NCBI GenBank assembly: GCA_017303675.1
Contig: JAFLBX010000001.1
Location: 383,970 to 447,969 of the forward strand
Direction: 5' to 3'
DNA length: 64,000 nucleotides
DNA from: Ignavibacteria bacterium
Lineage (GTDB): Bacteria > Bacteroidota > Ignavibacteria > Tepidaquicellales > OLB5
The position numbers and the translations under genes are program-made. Positions 8,831-54,227 of this stretch are shown here, in pieces. The stretch's first letter is position 1. Every line of letters starts with the position of its first letter. The notes under the pieces were generated by a model that saw only the letters and a program-made list of their open reading frames with translations, made no database searches and was not told where the DNA came from.

Positions 8831-9061
8831 AAAACCCGCAAAAATACCTGATTTTCAAGGTATTTTGCATGTTGAATTACAAATTTAATAAATTTGAAAT
8901 TGATTTAAAAGATAAAAAATTATTCAGCAAACCATATATAATGAAATTAATCTGTATTTGGAACTTAAATTATATAAAATTAATCATATTTATACTGAAT
9001 ATTTTTAAAGATTAAAATCATAAGAATTGAAAAAGCAATTAATAATTTTTGAACGATTGTT

Positions 9062-15807: not shown

Positions 15808-15935
15808 ATACAAAAATAATTTGTCAAAAATCGCTATCCAATGATTAATATCATAATAAAAACCATTAAAATACCGTGTTTTAATCAAAAATGTTGTCAT
15901 TTTATATTCAATGAATAATTAATATTTTGCTAATC

Positions 15936-16829
15936 ATGTATAGAATATTACTATATTACAAATATGTAAAAATCGATAATCCTGAATTTTTTGCAGAAGA
16001 ACATTTGGGTTATTGCAGAGATCTTGGACTACGGGGCAGAATTTTAATTTCACCCGAAGGAATAAACGGCACATGCAGCGGTTCATACAGCCAGACTGAA
16101 AAATATATGGCTCATATGAAGCTTGATGAAAGATTCAAAGATCTTTGGTTTAAAATGGATGACTCACCGGGTCATGTATTTAAAAAAATGCATGTAAGAT
16201 ATAAAGAAGAGCTTGTTACTTTCAGGCTGCCACAAGATCTTGACCCGAATGTATTAAGCGGCAAACATCTTGAGCCAAAAGAGTGGCTTGAGCTGATGCA
16301 GCAGGATGACGTTATCATTCTGGACGGAAGGACAGATTATGAGTTTGACCTTGGTCATTTTAAGAATGCTATCAGGCCGCCTGTTAAATCATTCCGTGAA
16401 TTCCCCGAATGGGTAGAAAAAGATTTTAAAATATATAAAGATAAAAAAGTTTTAACATACTGCACCGGAGGTGTAAGATGTGAAAAGCTTTCAGGTTACC
16501 TGCTGCAGCAGGGATTTAAGGATGTTTACCAGCTAAATGGCGGCATTGTAAATTATTCCCACGATCCTGAAGTAAAGGGAAAGCTCTTCGAAGGCAAATG
16601 TTATGTTTTTGATGAAAGAATATCCATACCCATCAACTTTGCCGATGAATACACTATTACCGGAAAGTGCCTGCATTGCGGAACTCCTTCTGACAGGTAC
16701 GTTAACTGCGCAAACCTTGATTGCCATAAACAGCATTTTGAATGCGAAGCATGCGAAGAAAAGTGGTCCCGTTCATGCAGCGAGGAATGTATGCAGGCCC
16801 CAAGGCATGAGCTCCTTCAAAATGCTTAA
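15936..16829 (+). CDS. trhO: tRNA uridine(34) hydroxylase TrhO (rhodanese family)
   Basis: TrhO (YceA) makes 5-hydroxyuridine at the wobble position of certain tRNAs using molecular oxygen. The 297-residue protein has the UPF0176 N-terminal ferredoxin-like domain (YRILLYYKYV, ISPEGINGTCSG). A rhodanese domain follows with active-site cysteine in YCTGGVRCEK. The C-terminus holds a cysteine-rich zinc-like tail (CLHCG, CANLDCHKQH, CEACEEKW). The frame can start at TTG 15927; ATG 15936 is chosen since MYRILLYYKYV matches the family start. It sits 128 bases from the divergent aminotransferase. Confidence 0.92.
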   Translation: MYRILLYYKYVKIDNPEFFAEEHLGYCRDLGLRGRILISPEGINGTCSGSYSQTEKYMAHMKLDERFKDLWFKMDDSPGHVFKKMHVRYKEELVTFRLPQDLDPNVLSGKHLEPKEWLELMQQDDVIILDGRTDYEFDLGHFKNAIRPPVKSFREFPEWVEKDFKIYKDKKVLTYCTGGVRCEKLSGYLLQQGFKDVYQLNGGIVNYSHDPEVKGKLFEGKCYVFDERISIPINFADEYTITGKCLHCGTPSDRYVNCANLDCHKQHFECEACEEKWSRSCSEECMQAPRHELLQNA

Positions 16830-16893
16830 AACACTGTGATTCTTAATTTTCGAAATTAAGCGGTTTAATCTGTAAATTTTAAAGCAAAAAATT

Positions 16894-17985: not shown

Positions 17986-19161
17986 TCAGACAAACTCTCC
18001 TGCTGCAAATCCGGAAGACCATGCCCACTGAAAGTTATAACCGCCAAGCCAGCCGGTAACATCGACCACTTCACCAATAAAATAGAGGCCGGGTACTTTT
18101 TTTGACTCCATGGTTTTGCTTGATAGCTCATTTGTATCAACTCCACCTTTTGTTACTTCCGCTTTGCCAAATCCTTCGGTTCCTTTAGGAACTAACTTCC
18201 AGCAGTGCAGCATTATTTCTATCATTTCAATTTCTTTATCAGAGAGTTTATTAACCGGTTTTGTTGGAAAATTAAGCTCACACCATTTTTCGGCAAATCT
18301 TTTCGGGAAAAATTTTGAAAGAACATTCACAAGCTCTGTTTTGTTGGGTTTATGTTCATTTAAAACTGATGGCAGATCTGTTTCAGGCAATAGATCGATG
18401 TTTACTGTATCTCCCCCGTTCCAATAGCTTGAAATCTGTAAAATTGCGGGACCGCTCAATCCTTTATGTGTGAACAATATGTTTTCACGGAAGCTGATAT
18501 TGTTACAGCTGACAATAGAGTCTATGGAAAGCCCTGAAAGTTCGCTGTATGCTTTTTCATTCAGTGTGAAAGGTACAAGTGCCGGGACAGTTTTGGTTAA
18601 TTTTAAACCAAATTGTTTGGCGATCTTGTAACCCAGATCACTTGCGCCCATTTGCGGAATTGAAATTCCGCCCGTAGCAATGACAAGTGATTCGGTTATA
18701 AACTCTCCAATATTACTTGTAATACGGAATGATGTTTCGCTGCCTGAATTGTTAATTTGTTCAATGTTATCAATGGTACAGTTTACCTTGATTTCAACAC
18801 CCGCATCATCGCATTCATTTTGCAGCATTTGGACAATTTCTTTGGCGGAGCCGTCACAAAAAAGCTGTCCCAGCTTTTTTTCGTGATACTTGATGCCGTG
18901 ATTTTCAACAAGTGATATGAAATCCTGCGGGGTATACCTAGCCAAAGCTGATTTGCAGAAATGCGGATTATTTGAAATAAAATTTTCGGGTTTAACATCA
19001 AGATTTGTGAAGTTGCACCTTCCTCCGCCGGAAATAAGTATTTTCTTCCCTATCTTTTCAGCATGCTCCAGCACCAGTACTTTCCTGCCGCGTTTTCCGG
19101 CTTCAATTGCACACATAAGTCCCGCAGCGCCCGCGCCGATTATGATGGTGTTGAAGTTCAT
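17986..19161 (-). CDS. HI0933-family NAD(P)/FAD-dependent oxidoreductase
   Basis: The 391-residue flavoprotein starts with the dinucleotide-binding motif IIIGAGAAGLMCAIEAG. The family-specific KKILISGGGRCNFTN follows at ~40, and a C-terminal GLYFIGEVVDVTGWLGGYNFQWAWSSG return motif completes the FAD site. Length and motifs match the HI0933/YhiN family, whose physiological reaction is not established. It is the last gene of the leftward run starting at asnS, 4 bases after the peptidase gene. Confidence 0.88.
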   Translation of the reverse strand: MNFNTIIIGAGAAGLMCAIEAGKRGRKVLVLEHAEKIGKKILISGGGRCNFTNLDVKPENFISNNPHFCKSALARYTPQDFISLVENHGIKYHEKKLGQLFCDGSAKEIVQMLQNECDDAGVEIKVNCTIDNIEQINNSGSETSFRITSNIGEFITESLVIATGGISIPQMGASDLGYKIAKQFGLKLTKTVPALVPFTLNEKAYSELSGLSIDSIVSCNNISFRENILFTHKGLSGPAILQISSYWNGGDTVNIDLLPETDLPSVLNEHKPNKTELVNVLSKFFPKRFAEKWCELNFPTKPVNKLSDKEIEMIEIMLHCWKLVPKGTEGFGKAEVTKGGVDTNELSSKTMESKKVPGLYFIGEVVDVTGWLGGYNFQWAWSSGFAAGEFV

Positions 19162-19165
19162 TTAA

Positions 19166-20674
19166 TTATTTTTTCCATCGTTCTTCATAAATATCTAAAT
19201 ATGTTTCTAATATTTCACCACTAAGAACAAAACCATTATTATTGAATCGTATCAAGATATCTTTTTTAATGAAGAATTCAAAAACATTTCCTACGATAGG
19301 TACAAACTCGTTTGAGTATGATAAATTCTTCAAATAATTAACAATGATTTCGTCATTAAAGAAGTTTACCACTTTCACAGAAACGCTGTCAACAAATATT
19401 CCTATCTCAGGGGGATTTGTTGCCGACAAAGAATCTTTAGGAAACATTGATAAAAAAAGTCTGCTTGTATAATTATTTTCAGTCTCATTTAGTTTGTCAA
19501 ATCCAATAAATTGATAATAACTTACAAAGAATTTGATTTTATCTTTTTTGAAAATTGGAACGTATCCAATATTGCCAACTCTTGATGGTTTACTGGTATC
19601 GGTAATTATAAAATTTAAATCTGGATTTTTATTATATTCATATAAATATACATTCCAATTATTGATTTTGGGAAAACGCAGGGAATTCATTTCAATATTC
19701 TTCACATATTCCAAATCCCCATTCGCTTTCTTATACAATTCCAGATATTTCTTGCCACCTAGCTCGTTAAGCAAAAACGAGTTATACAATCCGGCTACCG
19801 AGTAGCTCATGCTTGCATCGTTGTTATAAAAGCCATCGTTAGTAATAATTGAATCATATGTTAGTATGGCTGATTTTTGAAGATAGTAGCCAAGATCCGT
19901 AACTACACGCGGAGCCATACCGCCCCGGCCGCCAACTGCTACTGCAAATCCTTCCATAAAGAAAGGAAGCGTGTACAATCCCAGTTTTTTGAGTTTGTAG
20001 TTAATTAAAATATGAGCGACTTCATGAAAATGCGTTTGATATGATGTAACTACCTCATCGGTGCCGAGCATTGCCATACCTTTTGCCTTAAAGCCTGTAA
20101 TTTTTTCTACACTCGCCTCATCTTTACAGAAAATGTATCCTATCTTTTCTTTTTCAAGTATGCGTCTTTCTGCAATTGTAAAACCAAGAGTATCAGCAAT
20201 CATATCAACAAACTGGTCAAGCCGCTTGATGCAGTAGTCATTGAAATATCTCGGCTCCTCTATGCGAAAAGTGAAATACTTGCTTTCCTGTTTTTCCCAA
20301 AATCCCGAATGATAAGTGCCGTTTGTTACAAAACCATTATTAAAGTAATATTTACGTGAATAATTCGCTGCAGATACATTGAATATTACTTCTTTGTAAT
20401 TATCACTAAGGGGTTGTTCTTTGAGCTCATATTTATATTTTCCGCTTATGATGCCAGATTTTATTTCATCTGGTAATTCATAGCCAATCAGGATTTTGCT
20501 ATTTACACCGGTGTATTCAATACCAAGCCTGTTGCTTAGAATACGCTCTTCAGCACTGATATAATTGATGATCTCGGATTTATCATAAATAAGTGCATCA
20601 ATAAACTTTTCAGGAATTGATTGAGAAAAAGTAAAAGGGGCTAAAAATAATAGTATTAAAAGGTATTTGTACAT
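19166..20674 (-). CDS. Secreted gluzincin-type metallopeptidase-like protein
   Basis: The protein starts at ATG 20672-20674; the frame is open to 20770 but the extra residues precede a good signal peptide (YKYLLILLFLAPFTFSQ) and overlap yifB. The ~502-residue product has HEVAHIL in its centre and FFMEGFAVAVGG about 25 residues later. Together these give the HExxH plus downstream Glu arrangement of gluzincin (peptidase MA) zinc proteases. No T9SS sorting tail is present, so it probably stays in the periplasm or outer membrane. The family is not otherwise recognised. It ends 4 bases before the flavoprotein gene. Confidence 0.7.
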   Translation of the reverse strand: MYKYLLILLFLAPFTFSQSIPEKFIDALIYDKSEIINYISAEERILSNRLGIEYTGVNSKILIGYELPDEIKSGIISGKYKYELKEQPLSDNYKEVIFNVSAANYSRKYYFNNGFVTNGTYHSGFWEKQESKYFTFRIEEPRYFNDYCIKRLDQFVDMIADTLGFTIAERRILEKEKIGYIFCKDEASVEKITGFKAKGMAMLGTDEVVTSYQTHFHEVAHILINYKLKKLGLYTLPFFMEGFAVAVGGRGGMAPRVVTDLGYYLQKSAILTYDSIITNDGFYNNDASMSYSVAGLYNSFLLNELGGKKYLELYKKANGDLEYVKNIEMNSLRFPKINNWNVYLYEYNKNPDLNFIITDTSKPSRVGNIGYVPIFKKDKIKFFVSYYQFIGFDKLNETENNYTSRLFLSMFPKDSLSATNPPEIGIFVDSVSVKVVNFFNDEIIVNYLKNLSYSNEFVPIVGNVFEFFIKKDILIRFNNNGFVLSGEILETYLDIYEERWKK

Positions 20675-38538: not shown

Positions 38539-39990
38539 TTATTTAATTAAGATCATTTTCTTTGTTTCAAAAAAATCACCTGTTATAAGTTTATAAAAAT
38601 AAACTCCGCTTGAATTTTTGCTGCCGTCAAAATCAACCTCATAAGTACCCGGCTTCATATTTTCATTAACCAAAGTTTCAATTTCTTTGCCAAGCATATC
38701 AAATACTGTCAATTTTACAAAGCCACTAATTGGCATTTGGAATTTGAACTTAGTCATTGGGTTAAAAGGATTAGGGTAATTTTGAGAAAGCGAATATTCA
38801 GCAGGGATTTCTGTACTTATATTTGTAACTCCAATTGTATTACCTGTAGGATTAAAGTCATAATAAAGTTCTGAATTTGTACTTCCATTACGCACATCGT
38901 GCCAGATAATATGAGCTTTACTTCCGGTAACTGCAATATTAGGGTAATACGCGCCGCTGAATGAACTTGATACTTGTGTACTTGTTTCCCAGCTATTACC
39001 GCTGTTTGTTGAGCGCTTGTAATGAATTTCTGAACCTGATGGCAAAACTCCCCATATAACATGCACAATAGTTCCTGAAAGCAAAATTGAGGGATTACCT
39101 GCATAAGCATAAACTGTCAATCTGGTATCCGGGCTCCAGGAATTTCCGTTATCAGTTGAACGTTTGTAATAAACTTCAGCATTAATATTTGAATCACGCA
39201 GGTCAACCCATGTTATATGTACATCTGAAGAATTACATTTAATTGAAGGAGATTCTGAAATCCTTAATTCATTAGTTAAACGTGTATCGGCGCCCCAGCT
39301 TAAACCACCATTTGTTGACCGTTTATAAAATATTTCGTAATCATCATTGTGACGAGTATCAGACCAGGCAATATGAAGATTAGAGCCATATACAGCCAAT
39401 GAATTTAACGAAGCTAAACCTGTTGAGTGGGCTGTTAACATTGTATCTGAAGACCATGTGATTCCTCCATCAATTGAGCGTTTGTAAAACATCTCATATG
39501 TACCGCTTCTTGTATCACGCCAAATTACATTCACCGAAGAACCCTCTGCTTTGATTATTGGATCCTGCGAAACACCGGAACTATTAGTCAGTCGAACTTC
39601 AGACTCCCAGGTAACGCCATTATCAGTTGAACGCTTATAATAGATTTCCACATCATTGGTACGATTTTCCTGCCACACGATATGAACACTAGAGCCGGTT
39701 GACGAAATTGTTGGTAATGCTTTACTGGTTGGTTGATTTGTAAGCTGTAAATCAGATTCCCAGGTAACACCTTCGTTTGTTGATCTTTTATAGAATATTT
39801 CAGTATTACCATCTCTGGTATCCTGCCAAACAGCATGTAAAAAGCTGCCGCTTGATGAAAGATCTGAGTTAGTTGAAAACCCTGCTGCATTTGTCAGGCG
39901 AATATCGGGTTGCTGCCACTGTGCATAACAAATTCCAAATAACAATGAATAAAAACCAAATAAAATTGAAAATTTAAATATCTTTTTCAT
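38539..39990 (-). CDS. Secreted BNR (Asp-box) repeat beta-propeller with T9SS sorting domain
   Basis: The 483-residue protein has a signal peptide (SILFGFYSLLFGICYAQ), then seven or so repeats of ~50 residues. Each carries an Asp-box-like unit (RSTNEGVTWES, RSTDNGVTWES, RSIDGGITWSS and so on) and a preceding IVWQDTR/HIAWSDTR strand, as in sialidase-type six-bladed propellers. The C-terminal T9SS tail runs NYPNPFNPMTKFKF to TKKMILIK. No sialidase arginine triad is clear, so it is more likely a binding protein than an enzyme. It is the last gene of the four-gene leftward cargo operon and overlaps the upstream gene by 4 bases. Confidence 0.85.
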   Translation of the reverse strand: MKKIFKFSILFGFYSLLFGICYAQWQQPDIRLTNAAGFSTNSDLSSSGSFLHAVWQDTRDGNTEIFYKRSTNEGVTWESDLQLTNQPTSKALPTISSTGSSVHIVWQENRTNDVEIYYKRSTDNGVTWESEVRLTNSSGVSQDPIIKAEGSSVNVIWRDTRSGTYEMFYKRSIDGGITWSSDTMLTAHSTGLASLNSLAVYGSNLHIAWSDTRHNDDYEIFYKRSTNGGLSWGADTRLTNELRISESPSIKCNSSDVHITWVDLRDSNINAEVYYKRSTDNGNSWSPDTRLTVYAYAGNPSILLSGTIVHVIWGVLPSGSEIHYKRSTNSGNSWETSTQVSSSFSGAYYPNIAVTGSKAHIIWHDVRNGSTNSELYYDFNPTGNTIGVTNISTEIPAEYSLSQNYPNPFNPMTKFKFQMPISGFVKLTVFDMLGKEIETLVNENMKPGTYEVDFDGSKNSSGVYFYKLITGDFFETKKMILIK

Positions 39991-41276
39991 TTTACTAATA
40001 CCATCTTTCTGGTTTGTGTAAAATCATCTGCAGTAAGCTTATAAAAATATACACCGCTTGAAGAGTTAGCTGCGTTCCAATCGGCAGAATATGTTCCTGC
40101 ATTCAGTTTTTGGTTAACAAGGGTTTGAAGCTCTTTTCCGTTAACGTCATATATTACTATCTTAACTTCAGAACTTTGTTTAATCTGAAACTGAATATTA
40201 GTTACGGGATTAAACGGATTTGGATAGTTCTGCAATAGTGAAAATTCCTTTGGGATTTCATTGCTAATGTTTTTTATGCCGATAAATGGCGGGTCTTCTG
40301 ATATGAGATATAACCCGCTCCCGTTTGAAAGCGCTGAAAATGTTTTTGAAGAGCGGGGTATTTCGGAAATAGATGTTATTGAACCATTTAAACCGTTAAA
40401 TACGGGGTCTGAAAACCATGTTTCGCCGGCATTTGTTGTTATTCTGACTGTTCCGTTATCCCCGGAAACTGCTCCGCTGTCATTCCCACTGAAGAAAATT
40501 GAACGCAGTGTATTTGTTGTGCCGCTGTTTTTTAAAGACCATGTTGCGCCGTTATCGGTTGATTTAAATATCTTTCCCTGTGAACCCGCTATATAAAAAT
40601 TAGTTGCATTAAAGTTCTGTCTCGTTCTTTGTGAAACACAGTACAGGTTAATTGTAGAGTCGGGCAGGCTTACGTTCATCCAGTTCTGACCTGAATTTGT
40701 AGTTCTTAATATTGTTCCTTTTTCGCCTACTGCAACAACAAAACCGCCATTCATACCTATTCCTTTAAGATTTCTGGTTGTTCCGCTCTGCTGAGCAGTC
40801 CAGTTAGCCCCAAGATTATAGCTAATCAGCAGCACGCCGTTATCGCCAGCACAATGCTGCGTGGCTGAACTAATATCAACAGCAAATAAATTTAAAGCGG
40901 TTACCTGTGGTGAAACCGCCCAGTTTTCTCCAAGATTAGTTGAACGAGTTATAGTTCCGTTATTGCCAACTGCAATTACTAACGGCTGAAAGGTTGTTGG
41001 CTGTATTTTCAATGCATTCAGGTTTTGTGATGTGCCGCTGTTTCTGGGAGTATAAATTATAGTGTCACCGCTTGATGTTTTATATATTGTACCGTTTGGA
41101 CCAACGGTTATTCCAAAAGCAAAATCTGCGGCATTTGAATCTCCCACATTTACTTTTCCAAATGCTTCTGCAAATGCTGCAAATAACGTATGATATATTG
41201 ATTTACACCCGCTGCTAAATGTAAAAGACATAGAAATACAGCAGCATAATGTTAAAATTGAAATAAATTTTTTCAT
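39987..41276 (-). CDS. Secreted YCF48-like beta-propeller protein with T9SS sorting domain (copy A)
   Basis: The 429-residue protein has a signal peptide (SILTLCCCISMSFTFSSGC; a lipobox-like C is possible). Repeats of VGNNGTITRSTNLGENW, VGEKGTILRTTNSGQNW and similar follow, i.e. the Asp-box-like repeat of YCF48/HCF136 propellers. The tail NYPNPFNPVTNIQF to TRKMVLVK is a T9SS sorting domain. The next gene upstream encodes a paralogue of the same build. YCF48 proteins in plastids assist photosystem II, but in T9SS bacteria such propellers are surface proteins of unknown ligand. It overlaps the BNR gene by 4 bases (ATGA). Confidence 0.83.
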   Translation of the reverse strand: MKKFISILTLCCCISMSFTFSSGCKSIYHTLFAAFAEAFGKVNVGDSNAADFAFGITVGPNGTIYKTSSGDTIIYTPRNSGTSQNLNALKIQPTTFQPLVIAVGNNGTITRSTNLGENWAVSPQVTALNLFAVDISSATQHCAGDNGVLLISYNLGANWTAQQSGTTRNLKGIGMNGGFVVAVGEKGTILRTTNSGQNWMNVSLPDSTINLYCVSQRTRQNFNATNFYIAGSQGKIFKSTDNGATWSLKNSGTTNTLRSIFFSGNDSGAVSGDNGTVRITTNAGETWFSDPVFNGLNGSITSISEIPRSSKTFSALSNGSGLYLISEDPPFIGIKNISNEIPKEFSLLQNYPNPFNPVTNIQFQIKQSSEVKIVIYDVNGKELQTLVNQKLNAGTYSADWNAANSSSGVYFYKLTADDFTQTRKMVLVK

Positions 41277-41283
41277 TTTTTTC

Positions 41284-42591
41284 TCACTTTACTAAAACCA
41301 TTTTTTTTGTTTGGATAATATCACCTGCAATTATTTTATAAAAATAAACGCCGCTTGAGTATTTACTGCCGTTAAAATCAACCTCGTAAGTACCGGGTTT
41401 TAAATGTTTATTAACAAGAGTTTCAACTTCTCTGCCTGATAGATCATAAATAATAAGCTTAACATCACTGCTATTTGTTAATTGAAAATTGATAATTGTA
41501 TTGGGGTTAAACGGGTTGGGATAGTTTTGTGAAAGCGAAAACTCTTTCGGAATTTCTGTGCTGATCTGATTAATACCTATAACAGATATTACACTGTCTT
41601 CCGAGGCGACATATAAGGTGTTCGAATCTGACAGCGCAATAAATTTTTGCGGAAACAGGCTAAAAAGCGTTGGTGTTTTTATGCTTCCCGTTACATTAGA
41701 AAAATATGTATCTGTAAACCATAAATTGCCTCCGTTAGTTGTCATTCTGATGGTTCCGTTATCACCTGTAACAAATCCACTATCATCACTTGTAAAATAA
41801 ATTGAACGCAACGTATTAGTGGTTCCGCTGTCTATCAATACCCAGTTTGCGCCGTAGTTTGTTGATTTATAAATCCTGCCCTGCGAACCGCAAATATAAA
41901 AAGGGTTAATATACGTTATTCCAATAGAGGCTGGATTAATTCCGTAAAAGTTTATGTTTGTATCAGCAAGGCTGACATTAATCCAGTTGAGACCTGAATT
42001 AGTGCTTCTCAAAATTGTTCCCTTATCTCCGGCTGCAACCACAAATTCTGTTTCGTCAAGATGAGCTGAGACTGCATTCAGTTTTCTTGAGGAACCGCTT
42101 GGGATAACAGCCCAGTTTAATCCAAAATTTGTTCCTCTGAGTATTGTACCATTATCACCAGCTGCAAATTGGTAGAATCTACCCCATCTAACAGCATTTA
42201 GATTTGCAGAAGTTACGGAATTAACAACATTCCATGTATTTCCGAAACTTAATGAACGAACTATAGTACCGTTATTGCCAACAGCAATCATCTCTTCACC
42301 GCTAGAGCGTATATCAAGGCTGTTTAGGTTTTGCGTAGTACCGCTTGCTTTAGGTATAAAATTAATAGTATCACTACCGGAAGATTTATAAATTGTGCCG
42401 TTTGGACCTATTCCAATTATAAATGATGATTCAAGACCTGATACATCAGTTTTACGATCAAAATGACTTGTTAATGCCAAGAAAAAAAAACTGTAAAACA
42501 ATTGCTGGCTGCTTGTATTGCTGCAATTACCGTCTATCAAGCCTAAAGAAAGTGATGAACAAACCAAAATGTATGTAATAATTTTTTTCAT
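41284..42591 (-). CDS. Secreted YCF48-like beta-propeller protein with T9SS sorting domain (copy B)
   Basis: The 435-residue paralogue of the next gene shares the repeat phrases VGNNGTIVRSLSFGNTW, AGDKGTILRSTNSGLNW, and the T9SS tail NYPNPFNPNTIINF to TKKMVLVK. It has a signal peptide (YILVCSSLSLGLIDGNCS). The two copies arose by tandem duplication and have diverged in the middle blades. It is separated by 7 bases from copy A and 19 bases from the lipoprotein gene, so one transcript is likely. Confidence 0.83.
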   Translation of the reverse strand: MKKIITYILVCSSLSLGLIDGNCSNTSSQQLFYSFFFLALTSHFDRKTDVSGLESSFIIGIGPNGTIYKSSGSDTINFIPKASGTTQNLNSLDIRSSGEEMIAVGNNGTIVRSLSFGNTWNVVNSVTSANLNAVRWGRFYQFAAGDNGTILRGTNFGLNWAVIPSGSSRKLNAVSAHLDETEFVVAAGDKGTILRSTNSGLNWINVSLADTNINFYGINPASIGITYINPFYICGSQGRIYKSTNYGANWVLIDSGTTNTLRSIYFTSDDSGFVTGDNGTIRMTTNGGNLWFTDTYFSNVTGSIKTPTLFSLFPQKFIALSDSNTLYVASEDSVISVIGINQISTEIPKEFSLSQNYPNPFNPNTIINFQLTNSSDVKLIIYDLSGREVETLVNKHLKPGTYEVDFNGSKYSSGVYFYKIIAGDIIQTKKMVLVK

Positions 42592-43093: not shown

Positions 43094-43121
43094 ATTTTGA
43101 GAAGTTAAATTTATTTAAACA

Positions 43122-43231
43122 GGCAAAAGCGCTTTGTAAAATGGATCTCACTCAGCGCTTTTTGCCTTGGTCGTCCTCTTTTTGGGGAGGTTCAAACTAT
43201 TATTGATTAATTTAAGCGGACGACCAGATCC
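43122..43231. other. Interleaved inverted repeats in divergent gap A (potential pseudoknot)
   Basis: Three pairs of complementary arms lie between the cargo operon and helical paralogue 1. GGCAAAAGCGCT (43122-43133) pairs with AGCGCTTTTTGCC (43154-43166, one extra T). TGGTCGTCC (43168-43176) pairs with GGACGACCA (43218-43226). GGATCT (43143-43148), inside the loop of the first stem, matches AGATCC (43226-43231). The last pair crosses the first, so the whole can form a pseudoknot in RNA or a cruciform in DNA. Confidence 0.6.
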
Positions 43232-43385
43232 TGTGCAATTATATAGCTTAAAGTTTAACTCAGCAAAGAAATTTTTACTTGATTGTGGCAAGAATTTCTG
43301 TGCTTCAAGCTTAATAATGTGAATTTATATTGAATTTTAAATATTTATGTGAGATTTTACGGCAATTCTTTGTGGCACAAAAAAT

Positions 43386-44795
43386 ATGAAAAAAATACAG
43401 TTATTTGATTCTCTTAAATCTTTAAATAAAATAGAATTCCGTGAATTCGGGAAATTTGTAAGATCTCCTTACTTCAACAACAGGAGCGAGGTAATAAGAT
43501 TTTATGATGCTATAAAAAAATACTACCCTGATTTCAAAACAGAAAAAATAGATGAGAGTAAGGTTTTTGAAGAAATATATCCGGGGAAAAAGTTTAGCAG
43601 CGTTTTGATGAGAAAAATTTACTCTTTATTTGTTAATCTGCTGATGGATTATATTGTAACTACCGGCTTCCGGAAAAACACACTCGAATATAATGTTAAG
43701 CTTTTATACTTTCTCTATGAAAGAAAACTTCCTGCCGAATTGGTAAAAAAATCTAAGCTAATAACCAATTTACTAAAGAACTCTTTTCACACTATTGAGT
43801 ATTACGAATATAAATTTAAACATACAAGTAAGCTTAACGGCCATCTATCTGATTATGTAAGTATACCAGATTACCAGAAAGAACTGGATGACTTCATAGA
43901 GCAGTTTCTGGTTATAGCACTAGTATTATATCACAGATTATTAACAACCTCTAACCTGCATAAAATCAAATATGACCTGAAATTATATAAAGAGGTGCTT
44001 TTATTTATTGAAAACAATAATTTTGAAAACGTTACAATTGTTGCCATATATTACAACCTGGTAAAGCTTCTGGAAACACAGGATGAAAAGTATTTTTTAA
44101 AATTAATTAAACTTCGGGAAAAATTTAAGAAGAAATTAACACCTATTCTGCAATACAATATTTTCGTAACATTAGTAGATTACTCTTTAAACAGAATTTA
44201 CAAGGGTGATATTGGTTTTAGAAAACATTTATATTTGCTGACCAAAAATTACTTTGAAAAGTTTACTTTCCCGGAAGAGAATAGCTATTTGAATCCGATT
44301 TTATACACTGGCGCAATCAGAAATGCAGCATATTTAAAGGAATTTGGGTGGATAAATAACTTTAAAAACAAGTATACAAAAGCAATTGACCCCGAAATAC
44401 TAGAAGAAACTCTTAATTATTCAAATGCATTTATTGAGTTTGAAAAAGGTAATTATAAAGAATCCTTAAATTATGTTTGCAAAGTTAACCCGGTAAAAAT
44501 AGCCGCTAAAACAAATTCAAAGAATTTATTTATTATGCTGTTTTATGAACTGGGATATTATGATGAGCTTGTTTCACAAATTGATTCATATAAGCATTTT
44601 CTCAGAAATAACGATGTGGGAGAGACTATCAGAAACAGATGTCTGCCATTTTTAAAATATCTTTCGGATTTACTGAAAATAAAGCAATCAGGCAATAAAA
44701 ACAATCTGACATTGTTTTTAAAAAAACTAAATAATTCTGAATATTTTAACTTAAAAGAATGGATATTAAATAAAGCAGAAGAATTAATAAAATGA
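43386..44795 (+). CDS. Uncharacterised ~470-residue helical protein, paralogue 1 (SPYFN family)
   Basis: The 469-residue protein has no signal peptide or membrane helix and reads as an all-helical repeat protein. The first 40 residues hold the family signature IEFREFGKFVRSPYFNNRSEV, and the YYPDF and IYPGKKF motifs follow. The C-terminal part has TPR-like phrases (NAFIEFEKGNYKESLNYVCKV, DELVSQIDSYKHFL). It is one of four paralogues in the window; 1 and 2 are closest. No enzymatic motif is visible. It overlaps paralogue 2 by 4 bases. Confidence 0.75.
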   Translation: MKKIQLFDSLKSLNKIEFREFGKFVRSPYFNNRSEVIRFYDAIKKYYPDFKTEKIDESKVFEEIYPGKKFSSVLMRKIYSLFVNLLMDYIVTTGFRKNTLEYNVKLLYFLYERKLPAELVKKSKLITNLLKNSFHTIEYYEYKFKHTSKLNGHLSDYVSIPDYQKELDDFIEQFLVIALVLYHRLLTTSNLHKIKYDLKLYKEVLLFIENNNFENVTIVAIYYNLVKLLETQDEKYFLKLIKLREKFKKKLTPILQYNIFVTLVDYSLNRIYKGDIGFRKHLYLLTKNYFEKFTFPEENSYLNPILYTGAIRNAAYLKEFGWINNFKNKYTKAIDPEILEETLNYSNAFIEFEKGNYKESLNYVCKVNPVKIAAKTNSKNLFIMLFYELGYYDELVSQIDSYKHFLRNNDVGETIRNRCLPFLKYLSDLLKIKQSGNKNNLTLFLKKLNNSEYFNLKEWILNKAEELIK

Positions 44796-46219
44796 AAAAC
44801 TCTCAGATATATAATGCTTTAAGATCTTTAACTCAAAATGAATTTCACGAGTTCGGAAAATTTATTAATTCACCATATTTTAATAACCGAAGCGAGGTAA
44901 TAAGATTTTATGATGCCGTTAAAAAGCATTACCCTGATTTTAACATAAAAAAAGTTAACGAAGAAATGATATTTTCTAAAATTTATCCGAAGAAAATATT
45001 TAATGATGTACTGTTAAGGAAAGTTTTTTCGTTAACAACTAATTTGGTTGCAGATTTTCTTGCAATTTCTTCATTTAAAGAAAATGAACTTGAGTATAAT
45101 GTGAAAATTGCTGATAAACTTCGCGAGAAAAAACTTTCCGTTATGTTCGAAAAAAGATCAAAGATAATAGAAAGCTTGTTTGATACTTTTCCGCATACTT
45201 TTGCTTACTATGAATCCAAATTCAATTTCACCACACTTAAAAACGGTTACTTTCTGCATACCGATGAAGGTAAAATGATAAAAGGGTTCCAGAAAGAAAT
45301 TGACGATTTTATGGAATATTTTCTTTCGGTCAGTCTTTTGCTTTACATAAGACTTTCAGAATGGTCAAAAGCAAGAAGCATAAAATTTGATCTGAAATTT
45401 TATGATGAGGTATTAAATCATATTAAAAAGTATGATTATAATAATAACCCTTTAATAAACCTGTATTATAATATGCTGATGCTCTTGAATACAGAAGAGG
45501 AAAAATATTTTTATGAACTGCAGCAGGGAAGAAAAAACTTTGAAAACAAGCTGAGTCCCGGCGACGATTATAATGCAGTAATAACTTTAATGCAGTATTG
45601 TTATAAAAAAGTACAAAAGGGCGATAGTGACTTCAGAAGAAGACAGTTTGAGATGGTAAACATTGTACTAGATAAAAACATGCTGCCACCCGGGAATATT
45701 GAACCATATTTTTTCATTAACAGCGTCAGGAATGCAGCATTTATCAGAGAATTTGAATGGTGCACTAATTTCATTGAAAAATATAAATCACGATTAAACA
45801 AAGAAAGATTAAGCGAAACTGTCAGTTTTTCAAATGCATTGTTGGAATTTTGTAAAGGTAATTATGACACTGCACTTAATTGCATTTCCGCATTTAATAC
45901 AGAGCGTTCAACAATAAAAACAGAGTTCAGGAATATACAGCTTATAATATATTATGAACTAAATTTTACCGATGAGCTATATTCACTAATAGATTCATAT
46001 AAACATTTTCTCTCACGTGATAAGGATATAGCAGAAAAAACCAAAGAAATGTGTTCTGATTTCATAAAAATGTTCGTTAAGCTTGAAAAAATTAAACATG
46101 ATGAAAATTCAGAAGCAGCTATTTTGCTTAAAAATGAAGTGGAAAAAAAACCATATTTCAATATGAAAGAGTGGTTTTTCTTAAAGCTTGATGAAATTAT
46201 AAAAAAAAGCCGGAAGTGA
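44792..46219 (+). CDS. Uncharacterised helical protein, paralogue 2 (SPYFN family)
   Basis: The 475-residue protein starts with the same signature (NEFHEFGKFINSPYFNNRSEV, then HYPDF and IYPKKIF) and matches paralogue 1 along its length, including SNALLEFCKGNYDTALNCI and DELYSLIDSYKHFL. Start and stop of the pair overlap as ATGA (44792-44795), so they are made together. Its 3' end overlaps a terminator that serves the converging cargo gene. Confidence 0.75.
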   Translation: MKNSQIYNALRSLTQNEFHEFGKFINSPYFNNRSEVIRFYDAVKKHYPDFNIKKVNEEMIFSKIYPKKIFNDVLLRKVFSLTTNLVADFLAISSFKENELEYNVKIADKLREKKLSVMFEKRSKIIESLFDTFPHTFAYYESKFNFTTLKNGYFLHTDEGKMIKGFQKEIDDFMEYFLSVSLLLYIRLSEWSKARSIKFDLKFYDEVLNHIKKYDYNNNPLINLYYNMLMLLNTEEEKYFYELQQGRKNFENKLSPGDDYNAVITLMQYCYKKVQKGDSDFRRRQFEMVNIVLDKNMLPPGNIEPYFFINSVRNAAFIREFEWCTNFIEKYKSRLNKERLSETVSFSNALLEFCKGNYDTALNCISAFNTERSTIKTEFRNIQLIIYYELNFTDELYSLIDSYKHFLSRDKDIAEKTKEMCSDFIKMFVKLEKIKHDENSEAAILLKNEVEKKPYFNMKEWFFLKLDEIIKKSRK

Positions 46220-46227
46220 TCCGGCTT
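46201..46227 (-). terminator. Rho-independent terminator of the SBBP/P-domain cargo gene
   Basis: AAGCCGG (46207-46213) pairs with CCGGCTT (46221-46227). Leftward it is followed by eight Ts. It lies within the last codons of paralogue 2. Confidence 0.75.
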
Positions 46228-46250
46228 ATATTCATTCTATTATTCAGATA

Positions 46251-48326
46251 TTATTTTATTAAAATCATCTTCTTCACCGCTGAAAATTCATTCATTTCCA
46301 GTTTGTAAAAATACACCCCGCTTGAATAATTCGATGCGTTCCAGTCAAAATTGTAACTTCCGGCATCAAGATTATTATTCAGCAGGGATGCAACTTCCCT
46401 GCCAAGAATATCATACACGGAAAGTTTTACTAATCCTGCCTTAGGTAATTGAAATTTTATATTTGTAACCGGGTTGAAAGGGTTTGGAAAGTTTTGAGAA
46501 AGCGAATAACCCGAAGGTATTTCGCTTGAGATATTATTTATGCCAATAGGATTAGTACCTATCACAAAATTCAGAGACCACGCTTTAAGCATACCAGTAT
46601 TTCCGGAGGTTCTGTCGTATATTTTCAGTATCCACGATCCGTTAACATTTGAGTTATTGAACACTGAAAGTTCTTTAGTTGGTCTAAATGAACCGGTAAA
46701 TGGCGCCGTACCGCCGGAAATTGGATTTGCAGCGGAATCGTTAAGCACGGTATTAATAAAATTATCACCTGAGCCTCCGACCTGGTAAATAGCTGTATCA
46801 GTGATTCCGTTATGAACTAAATAGAATTCAAGGTCACCGTCATTTGGATGCAGTACAGTATCAATTTTGAGATTAACATCATAAACATAATAATTCGCCG
46901 GTGCGGTATAATCAACAGATATAGTATCATAAGCATTTTGAAGGTCTCCAATAGTTTTTGTTAATCCGCTTTTGGTGAACTCATTTGTAAATACTGATAC
47001 CGGAGAATATTTGATTATCGCAATATCATTGCCGGTAGTATAATTATTGCTGTTACTGTTACCTGTAGTGTAAACATTTCCGTTCTGGTCAACGCCTACT
47101 GAAATAGCCAGATCAGTACTGTTTGTAGATAAACCGTTATATATCTTTGCCCACTGAAGTGATCCATTAGTATTGTATTTAACAGTCGCTATATTAGTAT
47201 TGCCGTAAATATTTCCTATCACACAAACTCCGTTGTTATTATCAACTGCAATATCATAACCTGAATAACCATCCGGCACTGACCCGCCGTTGTAATTCCT
47301 TAACCATTGCAGGTTTCCGGCCGGGTCATATTTAATTGTAGTAATAGAGTATGAAAGCGGAAAGCCTGGCGCGCCGCTTTCCCCGGTAACATATACATTG
47401 CCTGAATTATCGGTAACTATAGCTCTTGGAATATCCGAGGAGTAATGATAAAAATTATTCCATGATAATGTTCCATCCGGATTGATCTTAAATACTGCGT
47501 AATCACTATTGTTTATGCCCGTTAAAAGTATATTGCTGTTAATATCAACCGTCATATCAAACGGTGAAGCCGGTGAACCTGAGCCTTTGCTGCCGCATCT
47601 TGCTGCCCAAACGAAATCAAGATTCTGTTCATACTTTAACACAACAAACCTTGAAGAATCCGGTAGATTAATATTACAGTATCCGCCAACAATTATCTTT
47701 CCGGCACCGTCTAAGGCAATTCTTCTTCCGCCTTCGCTTCCATAGTTATAGAATGTTTGTCCAATCAATGCACCTGCCGGGCTGAATTTTGCAATAAACA
47801 CATTGTTTAAAGTAGTAACATTGGTAGCATATTCGCCTGTTACATAAACATTACCAGTGAGATCAGTTACAATATCATAGCCTCCGTTATAGGCAGAGCT
47901 GTATGAAAACCTGTATGACCATAATTGTGTTCCGTCGGCATCATATTTAATAACCAGCATTTTATTAGCTCCCCCTGAAACAATGTCGCTTTCACCTGTT
48001 ACGTAGACATTTCCCGATGCATCAACATGTATAGCCCTTGTGAAAGCTCCGTTATCATTTGGTGCAATATAGTTCTGTATCCATTGCTGCACACCCTGGG
48101 AATTGTATTTAACAGTTACTGACTGAATATTGGTATTAGTTGTCTGCCTTTGAGAACCTGTAACATAAACATTACCCTGTGCATCTACAAACATGTCGTT
48201 AACGGCTTCATTTCTTACACTGTCAGAAGTGAATCTCTGCACCCATTCCTGTTGAACCTGTGCCTGCAATTGAACGCTGCATAAAAAACAAAATGTCATT
48301 ATCAAAAAACGGTTAATAATTTTCAT
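46251..48326 (-). CDS. Secreted SBBP-repeat propeller with P-domain and T9SS sorting domain
   Basis: The ~691-residue protein starts at ATG 48326, which is preceded at 7 bases by a strong ribosome-binding site (AAGGAG, 48334-48339); the longer frame to 48428 is rejected. The signal peptide (FLIMTFCFLCSVQLQAQ) is followed by ~10 seven-bladed-type repeats (GNVYVTGES and similar). A P-domain follows (YDVNLKIDTVLHPNDGDLEFYL to LKAWSLNFVIG) and the T9SS tail NFPNPFNPVTNIKF to AVKKMILIK. It is likely an adhesin or surface-binding protein. It sits alone between paralogue pairs, divergent from paralogue 3. Confidence 0.87.
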   Translation of the reverse strand: MKIINRFLIMTFCFLCSVQLQAQVQQEWVQRFTSDSVRNEAVNDMFVDAQGNVYVTGSQRQTTNTNIQSVTVKYNSQGVQQWIQNYIAPNDNGAFTRAIHVDASGNVYVTGESDIVSGGANKMLVIKYDADGTQLWSYRFSYSSAYNGGYDIVTDLTGNVYVTGEYATNVTTLNNVFIAKFSPAGALIGQTFYNYGSEGGRRIALDGAGKIIVGGYCNINLPDSSRFVVLKYEQNLDFVWAARCGSKGSGSPASPFDMTVDINSNILLTGINNSDYAVFKINPDGTLSWNNFYHYSSDIPRAIVTDNSGNVYVTGESGAPGFPLSYSITTIKYDPAGNLQWLRNYNGGSVPDGYSGYDIAVDNNNGVCVIGNIYGNTNIATVKYNTNGSLQWAKIYNGLSTNSTDLAISVGVDQNGNVYTTGNSNSNNYTTGNDIAIIKYSPVSVFTNEFTKSGLTKTIGDLQNAYDTISVDYTAPANYYVYDVNLKIDTVLHPNDGDLEFYLVHNGITDTAIYQVGGSGDNFINTVLNDSAANPISGGTAPFTGSFRPTKELSVFNNSNVNGSWILKIYDRTSGNTGMLKAWSLNFVIGTNPIGINNISSEIPSGYSLSQNFPNPFNPVTNIKFQLPKAGLVKLSVYDILGREVASLLNNNLDAGSYNFDWNASNYSSGVYFYKLEMNEFSAVKKMILIK

Positions 48327-48374
48327 TTTAGATCTCCTTATATATAGTTTTGTTTGTTGTGTCATTATAATATT

Positions 48375-48493
48375 CCGCCAAACCCCGCTAATAAAGAAGA
48401 GGTCTTCGGCTATGAATTGCTCAAACAAATAGCGGGATATTTTGGCGGTAATAAGCTTGATTTAGAATTTGAACACCGGAAGACATAGCCGAA
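48375..48493. other. Interleaved inverted repeats in divergent gap B (potential pseudoknot)
   Basis: CCGCCAAACCCCGCT (48375-48389) pairs with AGCGGGATATTTTGGCGG (48431-48448, with a small bulge). TTCGGCTATG (48405-48414), inside that loop, pairs with CATAGCCGAA (48484-48493) further on. The order 1-2-1'-2' is the same topology as in gap A, though sequences differ. It lies between the P-domain cargo gene and paralogue 3. Confidence 0.6.
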
Positions 48494-48622
48494 CGATTCA
48501 AACTTACCCTGCATAGCTTTGGTAAACAAAGAAAGTTTTGCATATTTTTAGAAGCCTGATTTTGATATTATTGTGTTTATAGCTAAATTTGACAATATTT
48601 AATTGAATTTTTAGAGTCATTT

Positions 48623-50059
48623 ATGCAAAAAACAAAATTGATAGGCTTATTAAGAATGTTTTCAAAACAGGAAATAAGCAGGTTTAATGAATTTATCCGG
48701 TCACCTTTTTTTAACAAAAATGAAAACAACGTAAAACTTGCCGAAACTGTTATAAAATACTGGCCTGAATTTGAATCAACTGAGCTTACCGAAGAAAATA
48801 TCTATAAACAAATATTCCCAAAAGAAAAGTTCGAATACTTTAAAATCAAAAATATTATTTCTGATGTATATGGACTTGCAGCTGAATTTCTTAAAGTGAC
48901 AATTTCTCAAAGCAGGAAACAGGATGGGGAAATAAATCTGCTGAATGCTCTTCATGACAGAAAGCTTGATAACATTTACAAACAGCGTGAAAAAAAGATC
49001 CAGAATGAATTATTAAACTCCAAAGTAAAAGATGAAGATAATTATTTACGGCAATACCAGCTTGAAAGGGTTAACATTGCACATTACAAATTCGCAGGTT
49101 CATCATATTCATTTAACAGCATTCAAAAAGAATTTGACAGCTTCCTCCAGTATTCTTTAACCGGCCTGCTTAGGCTTTACTCAAAAATGCTTCACAACAA
49201 AAATCACGGAAATATAAATTTTGATATGAAGATGTTTAATAATGTTTGGGATTATGTTAAAAATTCTGACCTGAGCAATAATCCTTCATGTATGGTTTAC
49301 GAACAAATAATTAAACTAGAGCTTAGCAAGGATGAAAAGGAATACCGAAAACTAATTGAGATCAAAACTAAGTATAAAAACTACATTCCCGATGAGGAAT
49401 TATATTACATTTTACTTGTCCAGAATTCATTTGCCGCCTACAAGTTAAAATCCGGGGATGAGAGTTACTACCAGGAACGGTTTTTAATTTTCAAAGAAAT
49501 GGTAGAGCTTGGATTCATGTCTTACAAATATGTCATTTATCCCAATTTCATTTCTGCTTTTACTTCTGCCTGTATGGCAGGAGAATATATTTGGGCTGAA
49601 GAATTTCTCAAAAAAGCATCAAACGGGATCTCGCCAACAGAGGAAAAGTTCAATACACTGAATTACTGCAGGGGATTCATTGCATTCAGGCAAAAAGAAT
49701 ACGGGAAGGCATTGCAGTATTTTTCCAAAACAAACTTCAGGCTTTATTTAATGAAAGTAATGGTAAAAAGCTATTCTGCCCGTATATATTACGAACAGAA
49801 CCTATATGAACAGACTATTTCTTCTGTCGATACTTTCAGGCATTACCTAAAGACAGAAAAAATGATGGATGAAGAACAGAAAAATGCGCACTATGAGTTT
49901 TTGAGGAACCTGGCTGAGCTTGCCAGGCTGAAGTTTGAAGGAATGGACAAAAAAAACAGGGAAGACCTTGCGATTCTCATAAAACAGATAAAAAGTATGA
50001 GCGCTAATCCGCTTGGAGCTAAGAACTGGCTGCTTGATAAAGCTGGGGAGCTGAATTGA
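48623..50059 (+). CDS. Uncharacterised helical protein, paralogue 3 (SPYFN family)
   Basis: The 478-residue protein carries QEISRFNEFIRSPFFNKNENNV, YWPEF and IFPKEKFEYFKIKNI. It is closest to paralogue 4. Mostly helical, without signal peptide or membrane segment; the C-terminal region repeats the SFRHYL/GKALQYF type of TPR-like phrases. It is 35 bases before paralogue 4. Function unknown. Confidence 0.75.
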   Translation: MQKTKLIGLLRMFSKQEISRFNEFIRSPFFNKNENNVKLAETVIKYWPEFESTELTEENIYKQIFPKEKFEYFKIKNIISDVYGLAAEFLKVTISQSRKQDGEINLLNALHDRKLDNIYKQREKKIQNELLNSKVKDEDNYLRQYQLERVNIAHYKFAGSSYSFNSIQKEFDSFLQYSLTGLLRLYSKMLHNKNHGNINFDMKMFNNVWDYVKNSDLSNNPSCMVYEQIIKLELSKDEKEYRKLIEIKTKYKNYIPDEELYYILLVQNSFAAYKLKSGDESYYQERFLIFKEMVELGFMSYKYVIYPNFISAFTSACMAGEYIWAEEFLKKASNGISPTEEKFNTLNYCRGFIAFRQKEYGKALQYFSKTNFRLYLMKVMVKSYSARIYYEQNLYEQTISSVDTFRHYLKTEKMMDEEQKNAHYEFLRNLAELARLKFEGMDKKNREDLAILIKQIKSMSANPLGAKNWLLDKAGELN

Positions 50060-50094
50060 ACTTTAAAAACATAAAAATTCATTAAAGGATAAGT

Positions 50095-51528
50095 TTGAAG
50101 AATACCAAGTTAATATTACTGCTAAAGACATTTTCCAAAGAAGAAATCAAGAGGTTCAGGGATTTTGTAATCTCACCATATTTTAATAAAAATAAAAATG
50201 TTCAGAAATTAAATGAGACCCTGTTTAAATTTCACCCGAAGTATGATTCTTTGCTTCCGGATGAAGAAACAATTTACAAAGAAATATTTCCAGATGAAAA
50301 ATTTGATTATTTTAAGATCAAAAATATTTCTTCTGATCTTTATAACCTGGGACTGGATTTTTTACGATTTACTTCTAATCCCGCCACTGAGTTTACATCT
50401 GAGTATAATCTTATAGTACAGCTGCGGCAGCGCAAACTATTTAATCTTCACAGAAAGCTTGTTAAATCTCTGGAAAAATCTTTCAAAGAAAAAAAAATAA
50501 AGGATAATCCTTTTCTTTACAATAATTACCTTGTCGCAATTGAAAGCCAGTTTGTAGATCTATTTGAAAAACCCAGCAGCATATCAGGTATTGTTAATGA
50601 ATTTGATAGTTTTTTTGAATACTTCATCAATAATCTACTTTTCTATTATAACCTGTTTATCCATATCAGCAAGGATAACAATATCAAGCTTGATGTTAAA
50701 ATGATGGATGAAGTAATTTCATTCCTTGAAAAAGGTCCGGTAAGCAGCCATCCAGTTACATTATCATACAGCTATCTCATCCTGCTTAAGATAAAAGGAA
50801 ATGATGAGTATTTTTTCAGATTAAAGGAACACTATTTCAATAATTTTGAGTTTATGAATGAATTTTCCGCATATACAGTTCATATGTATATGTTCGGTTA
50901 CTGCGCTGATAAATATAATATAGAAGGAGACAGGCGATATGTAAACGAAGGTTATGAACTTTACAGGCATTCATACTTAAACAACAGGGTTACATCCGGG
51001 GAACTTCTTTATCCGGATTTTGTGAATTACATAAAGATCTTTGTAAGAGCCGGCGATATTGAGCTTGCAAGAAAATTTATTGCTGATTTTGCAGCACAGC
51101 TGCCGAAAGACCAGCTTGATAACTGCCTGAATTATTCAAATGCTTACATTGCTCATTATGAAGGTGACTATAACAAAGCTTTGAAGCTTATAACAATGGT
51201 GAATTTTCCCCTCGCTATTTTAAAGGTACAGGTCAGGCTGATAGAAGTCCAGCTGAATTTCCAGCTTGAATATTATGAAGAAACACGAAGTATTATAGAA
51301 TCATTTAAGAAAACATTTATGAAGGAAGCCGTTATTTCAGAAAGCTTGAAAGAATCGATACTTGGTTTTTTGAAATCCACGATAACCCTTATAAATCTAA
51401 AACAGGAATCTGACAGGAATAAACGGCAAACTGATCTATCTATGCTTAAAGACACGATATCAAAGAATCAAATGAATCATTTCGGAGTAAAATTCTGGCT
51501 TGAAGACAGGATTAAAGAGGTATTGTAG
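50095..51528 (+). CDS. Uncharacterised helical protein, paralogue 4 (SPYFN family)
   Basis: The 477-residue protein begins at TTG 50095, since KNTKLILLLKTFSKEE aligns with the other paralogues from this point. It has EIKRFRDFVISPYFNKNKNV, FHPKY, IFPDEKFDYFKIKNI, and the helical C-terminus with NAYIAHYEGDYNKALKLI. All four paralogues conserve the SPxFN signature, the aromatic-Pro-acidic/aromatic site and the F/Y-P pair. The gene ends at a good terminator. Confidence 0.75.
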   Translation: MKNTKLILLLKTFSKEEIKRFRDFVISPYFNKNKNVQKLNETLFKFHPKYDSLLPDEETIYKEIFPDEKFDYFKIKNISSDLYNLGLDFLRFTSNPATEFTSEYNLIVQLRQRKLFNLHRKLVKSLEKSFKEKKIKDNPFLYNNYLVAIESQFVDLFEKPSSISGIVNEFDSFFEYFINNLLFYYNLFIHISKDNNIKLDVKMMDEVISFLEKGPVSSHPVTLSYSYLILLKIKGNDEYFFRLKEHYFNNFEFMNEFSAYTVHMYMFGYCADKYNIEGDRRYVNEGYELYRHSYLNNRVTSGELLYPDFVNYIKIFVRAGDIELARKFIADFAAQLPKDQLDNCLNYSNAYIAHYEGDYNKALKLITMVNFPLAILKVQVRLIEVQLNFQLEYYEETRSIIESFKKTFMKEAVISESLKESILGFLKSTITLINLKQESDRNKRQTDLSMLKDTISKNQMNHFGVKFWLEDRIKEVL

Positions 51529-53714: not shown

Positions 53715-54227
53715 ATGAAAAAAACAGAAAAAAAGCATAGGTTAGATAAAAACAATTATCTTGGTTTTCAATCTGTTTCTTTTACAGGTTGTGTATTTGA
53801 TATGAATAATTTATTTATTAATGATATGATGTTTGAAATTGTTCAGAAATATCTGCTGAAAGAAGCTGAATACTGTAAGATTGATCTAATCGTTTATTTA
53901 TTTATGCCAGATCATTTTCATCTAATCACTTGTGGTAATACGCCTGAATCAGATCCATTGGACTTTATGAAAAGATTTAAACAGGATACCGGATATTGGT
54001 TTTCGCAAAACAAAATTGGGGAAAAATGGCAGAAAGATTTCTACGACCACATAATTCGAAGCGATGAAGACATAAAAAATCAGGTTTGTTATATTTTAAA
54101 TAACCCGGTAAGAAAAGGTCTTGTATCAGATTGGAAAGACTATCCTTATAAAGGATCAACTATTTATGATTTAAACCATTTTATTATATCGCAGCCTGAA
54201 GGCTGCGACTACCGTATCTTTAATTAA
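53715..54227 (+). CDS. REP-associated tyrosine transposase (RAYT, Y1/HUH family)
   Basis: The 170-residue protein is a single-domain HUH nuclease. MPDHFHLIT carries the two metal-binding histidines (HxH), and NQVCYILNNPVRKGLV carries the catalytic tyrosine. The start HRLDKNNYLGFQSVSFTGCV and the W(Q)KDFYDHIIRSDED block fit the IS200-like RAYT group, which recognise REP hairpins as single strands. It is flanked by a perfect inverted pair of such hairpins, the right one lying inside the last codons of the gene. It is probably a domesticated mobiliser rather than a free insertion sequence. Confidence 0.9.
   Translation: MKKTEKKHRLDKNNYLGFQSVSFTGCVFDMNNLFINDMMFEIVQKYLLKEAEYCKIDLIVYLFMPDHFHLITCGNTPESDPLDFMKRFKQDTGYWFSQNKIGEKWQKDFYDHIIRSDEDIKNQVCYILNNPVRKGLVSDWKDYPYKGSTIYDLNHFIISQPEGCDYRIFN
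54190..54212 (-). repeat. REP hairpin with GTAG (right of transposase, inside its coding end)
   Basis: The 23-base unit is the exact reverse complement of the left copy. It encodes the QPEGCDY part of the transposase C-terminus, so gene and repeat are fused at this edge. Confidence 0.85.

Follow-up and report, generated by a model that had tools for sequence, protein, structure and literature searches.

What is the function of four paralogous genes of no named family that stand among genes for secreted proteins? This question is raised by a 64,000-nt stretch of an Ignavibacteria bacterium genome (assembly GCA_017303675.1, contig JAFLBX010000001.1, positions 383,970 to 447,969; hereafter the window), in which the genes P1–P4 lie close to leftward genes for cargo proteins of the type IX secretion system (T9SS). 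The initial annotation, made from the sequence alone, had described four rightward paralogues of about 475 residues with a shared N-terminal signature, and this was confirmed (Table 1): all four proteins carry the N-terminal SP[YF]FN signature, from which we call the family SPYFN, and a P-x-[FY] site (P48), are all-helical and resemble tetratricopeptide repeat (TPR) proteins, and show no signal peptide by eye. The claim that each pair adjoins a leftward T9SS cargo gene holds directly for P3, and for P1 by way of a lipoprotein gene that heads a leftward T9SS-cargo run. As a system of its own the locus did not stand, because the two pairs are one instance of a genome-wide pattern and not a special four-gene system. 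On the evidence given below, SPYFN proteins are probably dedicated ligand-sensing regulators of the T9SS-cargo operons divergent from them; what we infer is the regulation itself and its sign, the ligand, and that the proteins bind DNA or RNA.

A tblastn search with P2 gave 51 places in the genome itself (3.65 Mb, two contigs), far more than chance would allow, and a profile made from the window proteins recovered 47 full-length members in the fetched loci, a further one cut by the edge of a fetched region, and a fragment of 223 aa; the SPYFN family has about 48 full-length copies in this one genome. Members of 469–505 aa can be aligned end to end; the paralogues are 20–30% identical, and most have 20–28% identity to P2. 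The most conserved columns lie within residues 1–50 (E17, F21, S27, P28, F30, N31, K32 and P48), to which a C-terminal tryptophan is added. No Pfam or NCBIfam family was assigned to the members, and weak TPR matches were found at about residues 310–405. All 12 genus relatives carry the family, as do most genomes of the order, and the copy number varies from 0 to several dozen; of 15 more distant genomes sampled from the class, only one gave a match, and that a borderline one. Relatives were found in Ignavibacteria, Saprospiraceae (including Lewinella and Aureispira metagenome-assembled genomes), Chitinophagales and a Kapaibacterium (Kapabacteria); full-length matches were rare in a phylum sample of 296 genomes, and the viral contigs searched gave no relatives. 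Collections could be scanned with a motif-restricted subset, A3, the alignments of the entire family (A1 and A2) being too diverse for this. The anti-phage defence hidden Markov models of PADLOC gave no consistent match among 88 members, and a defence system was ranked low. Our literature searches found no description of the SPYFN family or of local regulators of T9SS cargo.

The genomic layout of the family is highly regular. After tandem copies had been collapsed into units (42 in this genome), 266 genes from 20 spread-out 20-kb regions of the genome were used as background. The nearest 5' gene runs divergently in 40 of the 42 units, with a median gap of 308 nt, and for 66/266 background genes. 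At least one of the three leading genes of the divergent run encodes T9SS cargo in 30/42 units and for 4/266 background genes (odds ratio 164, Fisher p=1e-27); for other genes of the same loci the figure is only 7/217 (p=5e-23). In other genomes, belonging to Ignavibacteria, Saprospiraceae, Chitinophagales and Kapabacteria, 92 of 94 units are divergent (median gap 292 nt). The sorting-domain model applied to these genomes was trained on the present genome and undercounts Saprospiraceae; TIGR04183 scored above its curated cut-off in nine of ten tested Saprospiraceae-type partners. The association with T9SS cargo was thus looked for beyond the locus of the window, as the check proposed with the initial annotation, and was found; genomic association, both here and in other Bacteroidota classes, lends strong support to the proposal that the proteins act as partners or controllers of the secreted proteins beside them. 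Overlaps of 4–8 nt are frequent between tandem members and are retained across genomes, and the start of P2 overlaps the stop of P1 by 4 nt (ATGA).

Several further observations concern the cargo side. A first look over the whole 3.65 Mb gave about 338 candidates for T9SS sorting domains. Some SPYFN-facing cargo operons are headed by a small ribbon-helix-helix-like open reading frame (ORF; GYRLKPETHKMI) with GTGCAC repeats around its start (loci L037, L043:8074-8283, L048:5536-5721 and 9001-9204, L050 and L052:15735), which possibly represents a second, autoregulatory layer. Another small ORF at the first position of operons resembles a lone fibronectin type III domain and has no signal peptide (L041:15812-16081, L044:5734-6057, L052:5204-5539, L115, L119 and L127).

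The intergenic region itself carries a characteristic promoter. The pattern TTTG-N17-23-TAnnTTTG, which we take to be the Bacteroidota promoter consensus, was found in 24/40 SPYFN-facing leaders of this genome, in 3/106 control divergent regions, and in 1/30 T9SS leaders with no SPYFN gene opposite. An extended -33 box, TTTCTTTG, was found in 14/40 leaders and 0/106 controls (p=2e-9), and SPYFN-facing promoters often show the form TTTCTTTG-N20-TAnnTTTG, which is absent from the controls.

Alignment of orthologous intergenic regions exposed, in addition, a conserved leader element. Read on the cargo strand, it forms an H-type pseudoknot, in which the 5' arm of helix B lies inside the loop of helix A and the 3' arm of B lies downstream of A; the 5' arm of helix A is placed near the 5' end of the transcript because it starts about 5 nt after the -7 box. 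The stems are unrelated between unrelated loci (TTCGGCTATG/CATAGCCGAA at P3, CTAATGGCGTTAA/TTAACGCCATTAG and TACGGGACAGTC/GACTGTCCCGTA at L039, AGCGCATAAATTT/AAATTTATGCGCT at L036, and AGGCTATACG/CGTATAGCCT at L046), with similar spacing in most. At a cut-off of -35 kcal/mol for a strong pseudoknot, which was set after the first examples had been seen, about 6/40 leaders of this genome and 17/91 of other genomes qualify, compared with 2/106 controls, both being orientations of one region. A bare pseudoknot descriptor is unspecific and fires also inside coding regions, so that the case for the pseudoknot is carried not by the scan but by conservation among orthologues, the asymmetry of the wobbles and compensatory changes. 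When G-U and A-C are scored equally, the cargo strand has 20 G-U and 3 A-C wobbles at interior positions, which points to RNA of this strand and not to an inverted repeat in the DNA. Within the clade of L046 (alignment A6), 95.9% of cells pair, compared with 38–44% for slid structures, and two pairs show double changes; permutation gives this covariation modest support, and the shuffle test is weak, because most pairs are invariant. Among P3 orthologues, inspection of the sequences by eye showed the inner part of helix A changed from G-C to U-A (L161) and apparently to A-U (L165). Scoring by intermolecular duplex folding reached saturation and left leaders and shuffles indistinguishable; contiguous-helix scoring told them apart. 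In Rfam 15, the window matched only a tRNA, and four leader-bearing loci gave one sub-threshold chance match located elsewhere. G+C-rich interspersed inverted repeats of the CCCCTCTCC/GGGTGAGG type, which look like miniature repeats, mimic pseudoknots in scans (L047:1931-2057, L056:25-1704 and L142:18681-18846).

Two other readings concern this leader. According to one, SPYFN proteins are cognate RNA-binding regulators of the folded leader that control translation or elongation rather than initiation; the pseudoknot leaders begin where the cargo mRNA is predicted to start, the wobbles have the asymmetry expected from that strand, the leader is conserved with SPYFN while the cargo changes (see below), and none of 30 T9SS leaders without SPYFN reaches -35 kcal/mol. 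We hold this to be somewhat unlikely, given how few leaders of this genome carry a strong pseudoknot, the lack of a pseudoknot in the leuA leaders of the distant homologues described below, and the lack of a recognised RNA-binding fold in SPYFN. According to the other, the pseudoknot works without SPYFN, as a riboswitch or thermosensor, and SPYFN would act only on promoter DNA or elsewhere. RNAs that bind ligands typically have structured leaders beside a start site, and SPYFN proteins occur also without the pseudoknot, but the stem and loop sequences differ wholly between loci, unlike a conserved ligand pocket, and the pseudoknot is tied to SPYFN neighbours; we judge this reading improbable. 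The leader data suggest that at least a subset of the targets is also controlled through the mRNA leader.

Table 1. Coordinates within the window of the SPYFN genes, the genes facing them and the predicted control elements.
Feature	Position	Strand	Remarks
P1, SPYFN-family regulator candidate, 469 aa	43386..44795	+	ORF, tblastn, family profile
P2, SPYFN-family paralogue, 475 aa	44792..46219	+	43% identical to P1
P3, SPYFN-family paralogue, 478 aa	48623..50059	+	orthologues in seven relatives, 57–74% identical
P4, SPYFN-family paralogue, 477 aa	50095..51528	+	TTG start; AlphaFold-modelled protein
T9SS cargo divergent from P3	46251..48428	-	SBBP-type beta-propeller and C-terminal sorting domain
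-33 box TTTCTTTG, P3-facing cargo promoter	48527..48534	-	
-7 box TAAGTTTG, P3-facing cargo promoter	48499..48506	-	20-nt spacer
Pseudoknot in leader of P3-facing cargo mRNA	48375..48493	-	
Helix A1, P3 leader	48484-48493/48405-48414	-	
Helix A2, P3 leader	48468-48475/48418-48425	-	
Helix B, P3 leader	48430-48448/48375-48390	-	
-33-like box TTTCTTTG, P1-facing operon	43264..43271	-	
Structured leader of P1-facing operon	43121..43231	-	helices largely retained in orthologue L071
Helix GGTCGTCC/GGACGACC, P1-facing leader	43218-43225/43169-43176	-	
Helix AGGCAAAAAGCGC/GCGCTTTTGCCT, P1-facing leader	43155-43167/43121-43132	-	
Lipoprotein, 160 aa, first gene of run divergent from P1	42611..43093	-	
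T9SS cargo in P1-divergent run	41284..42591	-	YCF48-like repeats
T9SS cargo in P1-divergent run	39987..41276	-	YCF48-like repeats
T9SS cargo in P1-divergent run	38539..39990	-	BNR/exo-alpha-sialidase-like repeats; C-terminal NYPNPFNP sorting domain by eye

Comparison of P3 with its orthologues from seven relatives separates the control region from the cargo. Three of the seven face the same SBBP cargo (72–89% identical), two a different SBBP protein (30%), and two proteins without BLAST similarity to the P3-facing cargo. The 170 nt ending at the pseudoknot are 71–78% identical in 6/7 orthologues (shuffled 51–55%), whereas in the next 400 nt the identity falls to 56–61% (shuffled 53–55%), and the drop occurs exactly where the cargo differs; at L162 the cargo is retained and the pseudoknot lost. 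Because promoter and leader stay while the cargo changes, the SPYFN gene, promoter and leader form, in most cases, the unit that stays together. This argues against a dedicated cytosolic chaperone or targeting factor that binds the nascent chain of its partner before Sec/T9SS export, an idea to which the frequent peptide binding of TPR proteins and the strong genomic association with secreted proteins lend some weight. The layout is moreover divergent and not co-operonic, and T9SS sorting domains are present in all 59 relatives examined; those without SPYFN also have abundant T9SS cargo. Together with the distant homologues described next, which face the gene of the cytosolic enzyme LeuA and not secreted proteins, these results make the chaperone very unlikely, and the earlier suggestion that the proteins help export found no support.

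Sub-threshold matches in the phylum led to a mostly single-copy homologue of about 515 aa, which stands head-to-head with leuA in 28 of 30 genomes, with varying downstream neighbours (L188, L189 and L196-L225, from several Bacteroidota families). Over its full length it fits the NCBIfam model NF058569 ("BT2802 family ribose utilization protein") with E near 1e-47 but falls short of the strict cut-off, and the SPYFN profile aligns with this leu-linked family in hhalign with a probability of 96% (E=2.7e-9; N-terminal domain alone, E=8.7e-5). Judged from these profile comparisons, SPYFN is distantly related to the BT2802-like family through leu-linked intermediates, and the leuA-facing protein is a candidate regulator of leucine biosynthesis. 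One report describes RusR as the regulator of the Rus ribose locus BT2803-2809 (PMC12596196). SPYFN and the BT2802 family are alike in length class, in an N-terminal helical domain followed by TPR, and in a gene adjoining or divergent from the target locus; SPYFN differs in the SP[YF]FN motif, in about 48 copies per genome and in facing T9SS cargo. The divergent layout might alternatively be a by-product of gene-cassette mobility, regulator and cargo moving together without any regulation, as the many divergent paralogues scattered across both contigs and the observed cargo replacement would allow; but the intergenic promoter and leader are conserved while the cargo is exchanged, and the layout recurs in distant families and with leuA, and this explanation is hardly credible to us. 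The genome under study contains also at least five BT2802-like sister genes (about 515 aa), and those checked likewise diverge from a gene for T9SS cargo or for a secreted protein: L147:10912-14008 (minus) facing 14766-16859 (plus), L036:1981-3492 facing 3744-5105, and L141:19659 facing 18776-19270.

The AlphaFold model of P4 (predicted local distance difference test, pLDDT, 93) has five to six helices in its N-terminal domain, which is followed by a superhelix at the C-terminus. The top structural matches of the superhelix are Rap (Z 15.5, 283 residues), NprR (13.4) and PlcR (11.1), with root-mean-square deviations of 6–7 Å over about 280 residues for Rap and NprR. Like the RRNPP sensors (Rap, NprR, PlcR and AimR), SPYFN proteins have a C-terminal TPR superhelix and would be dedicated regulators of neighbouring genes; unlike them, they have no recognised N-terminal XRE helix-turn-helix, belong to another phylum and are 7–12% identical in the top Rap/NprR matches. 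A weak likeness of the N-terminal domain to filovirus VP30 (Z 6.2) and metapneumovirus M2-1 was below the noise level of the tool and was not used.

A dedicated regulator of the facing operon is favoured because the divergent layout persists across class-level distances, the control region and not the cargo is conserved, the promoter is special and the homology leads to BT2802-like proteins, which face a metabolic operon in the same way. In the proposed mechanism, each target would have one cytosolic SPYFN regulator, distantly related to the BT2802-like family and acting on the control region of about 300 bp shared head to head with an operon for T9SS cargo or another envelope protein. The conserved N-terminal 95-residue helical domain may contact the transcription or translation machinery or nucleic acid, while the divergent C-terminal TPR superhelix would sense an intracellular ligand, a peptide or metabolite, as in Rap/NprR, and ligand sensing would switch the strong promoter of the cargo, TTTCTTTG-N20-TAnnTTTG. 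Where the cargo mRNA has a pseudoknot leader, as it does in a subset, this may provide a second, RNA-level control point for the regulator or for an independent ligand.

Several points weigh against this reading. In this genome a sorting domain is missing from ten of the 40 divergent partners, several of which look by eye like secreted proteins or lipoproteins, and about 34/40 leaders have no strong pseudoknot, which therefore cannot serve as the target throughout. Against NF058569, not one of 88 SPYFN members was listed at E<=1, and BT2802 is presumably RusR, in agreement with the adjacency of its gene to BT2803-2809. Because TPR superhelices resemble one another, the Z of 15.5 to Rap supports peptide sensing weakly. 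The N-terminal domain (model pLDDT 88) has no recognised DNA- or RNA-binding fold and no clear helix-turn-helix, its best PDB match, at Z 6.2, being within noise.

Some details of the window remain to be added. The ORF of the P3-facing cargo starts with TTG at 48428, and the likelier start is the ATG at 48326, behind AAGGAG. P4 starts 35 nt after P3 (50059-50095), and in a related genome (L060) a T9SS cargo gene lies between the P3 and P4 orthologues; from this comparison, P4 appears to have lost its own divergent cargo gene and control region in this genome. At 53715-54227 (+), a protein with an MPDHFHLI motif resembles a REP-associated tyrosine transposase.

Hundreds of T9SS proteins are secreted by Bacteroidota, and for most of them we know of no described locus-specific control. 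PorX/PorY-SigP regulates T9SS-linked genes in Bacteroidota as global two-component and extracytoplasmic function (ECF) sigma control of the machinery; both systems concern T9SS-linked genes, and SPYFN would provide one local regulator per cargo operon. The regulators of polysaccharide utilization loci (SusR, hybrid two-component systems and ECF sigma/anti-sigma pairs) sense glycans, are usually membrane-linked and run glycan-uptake loci; they share with SPYFN the one dedicated regulator per surface-protein locus and the dozens of copies, and their folds are unrelated. If the proposal is true, one regulator per cargo with an alignable architecture would make locus-specific control testable in Saprospiraceae, Chitinophagales and Ignavibacteria, and an unnamed family of dozens of copies per genome would receive a function and a link to BT2802-like proteins. 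A naturally diversified set of regulator/leader pairs would also become available. A bolder extension, unlikely to hold as we see it at present, is that dozens of paralogous TPR regulators, each with a cognate control element (partly a sequence-diversified pseudoknot), may form an orthogonal protein-RNA set, by which T9SS proteins would be individually addressable and cargo genes would be exchangeable cassettes.

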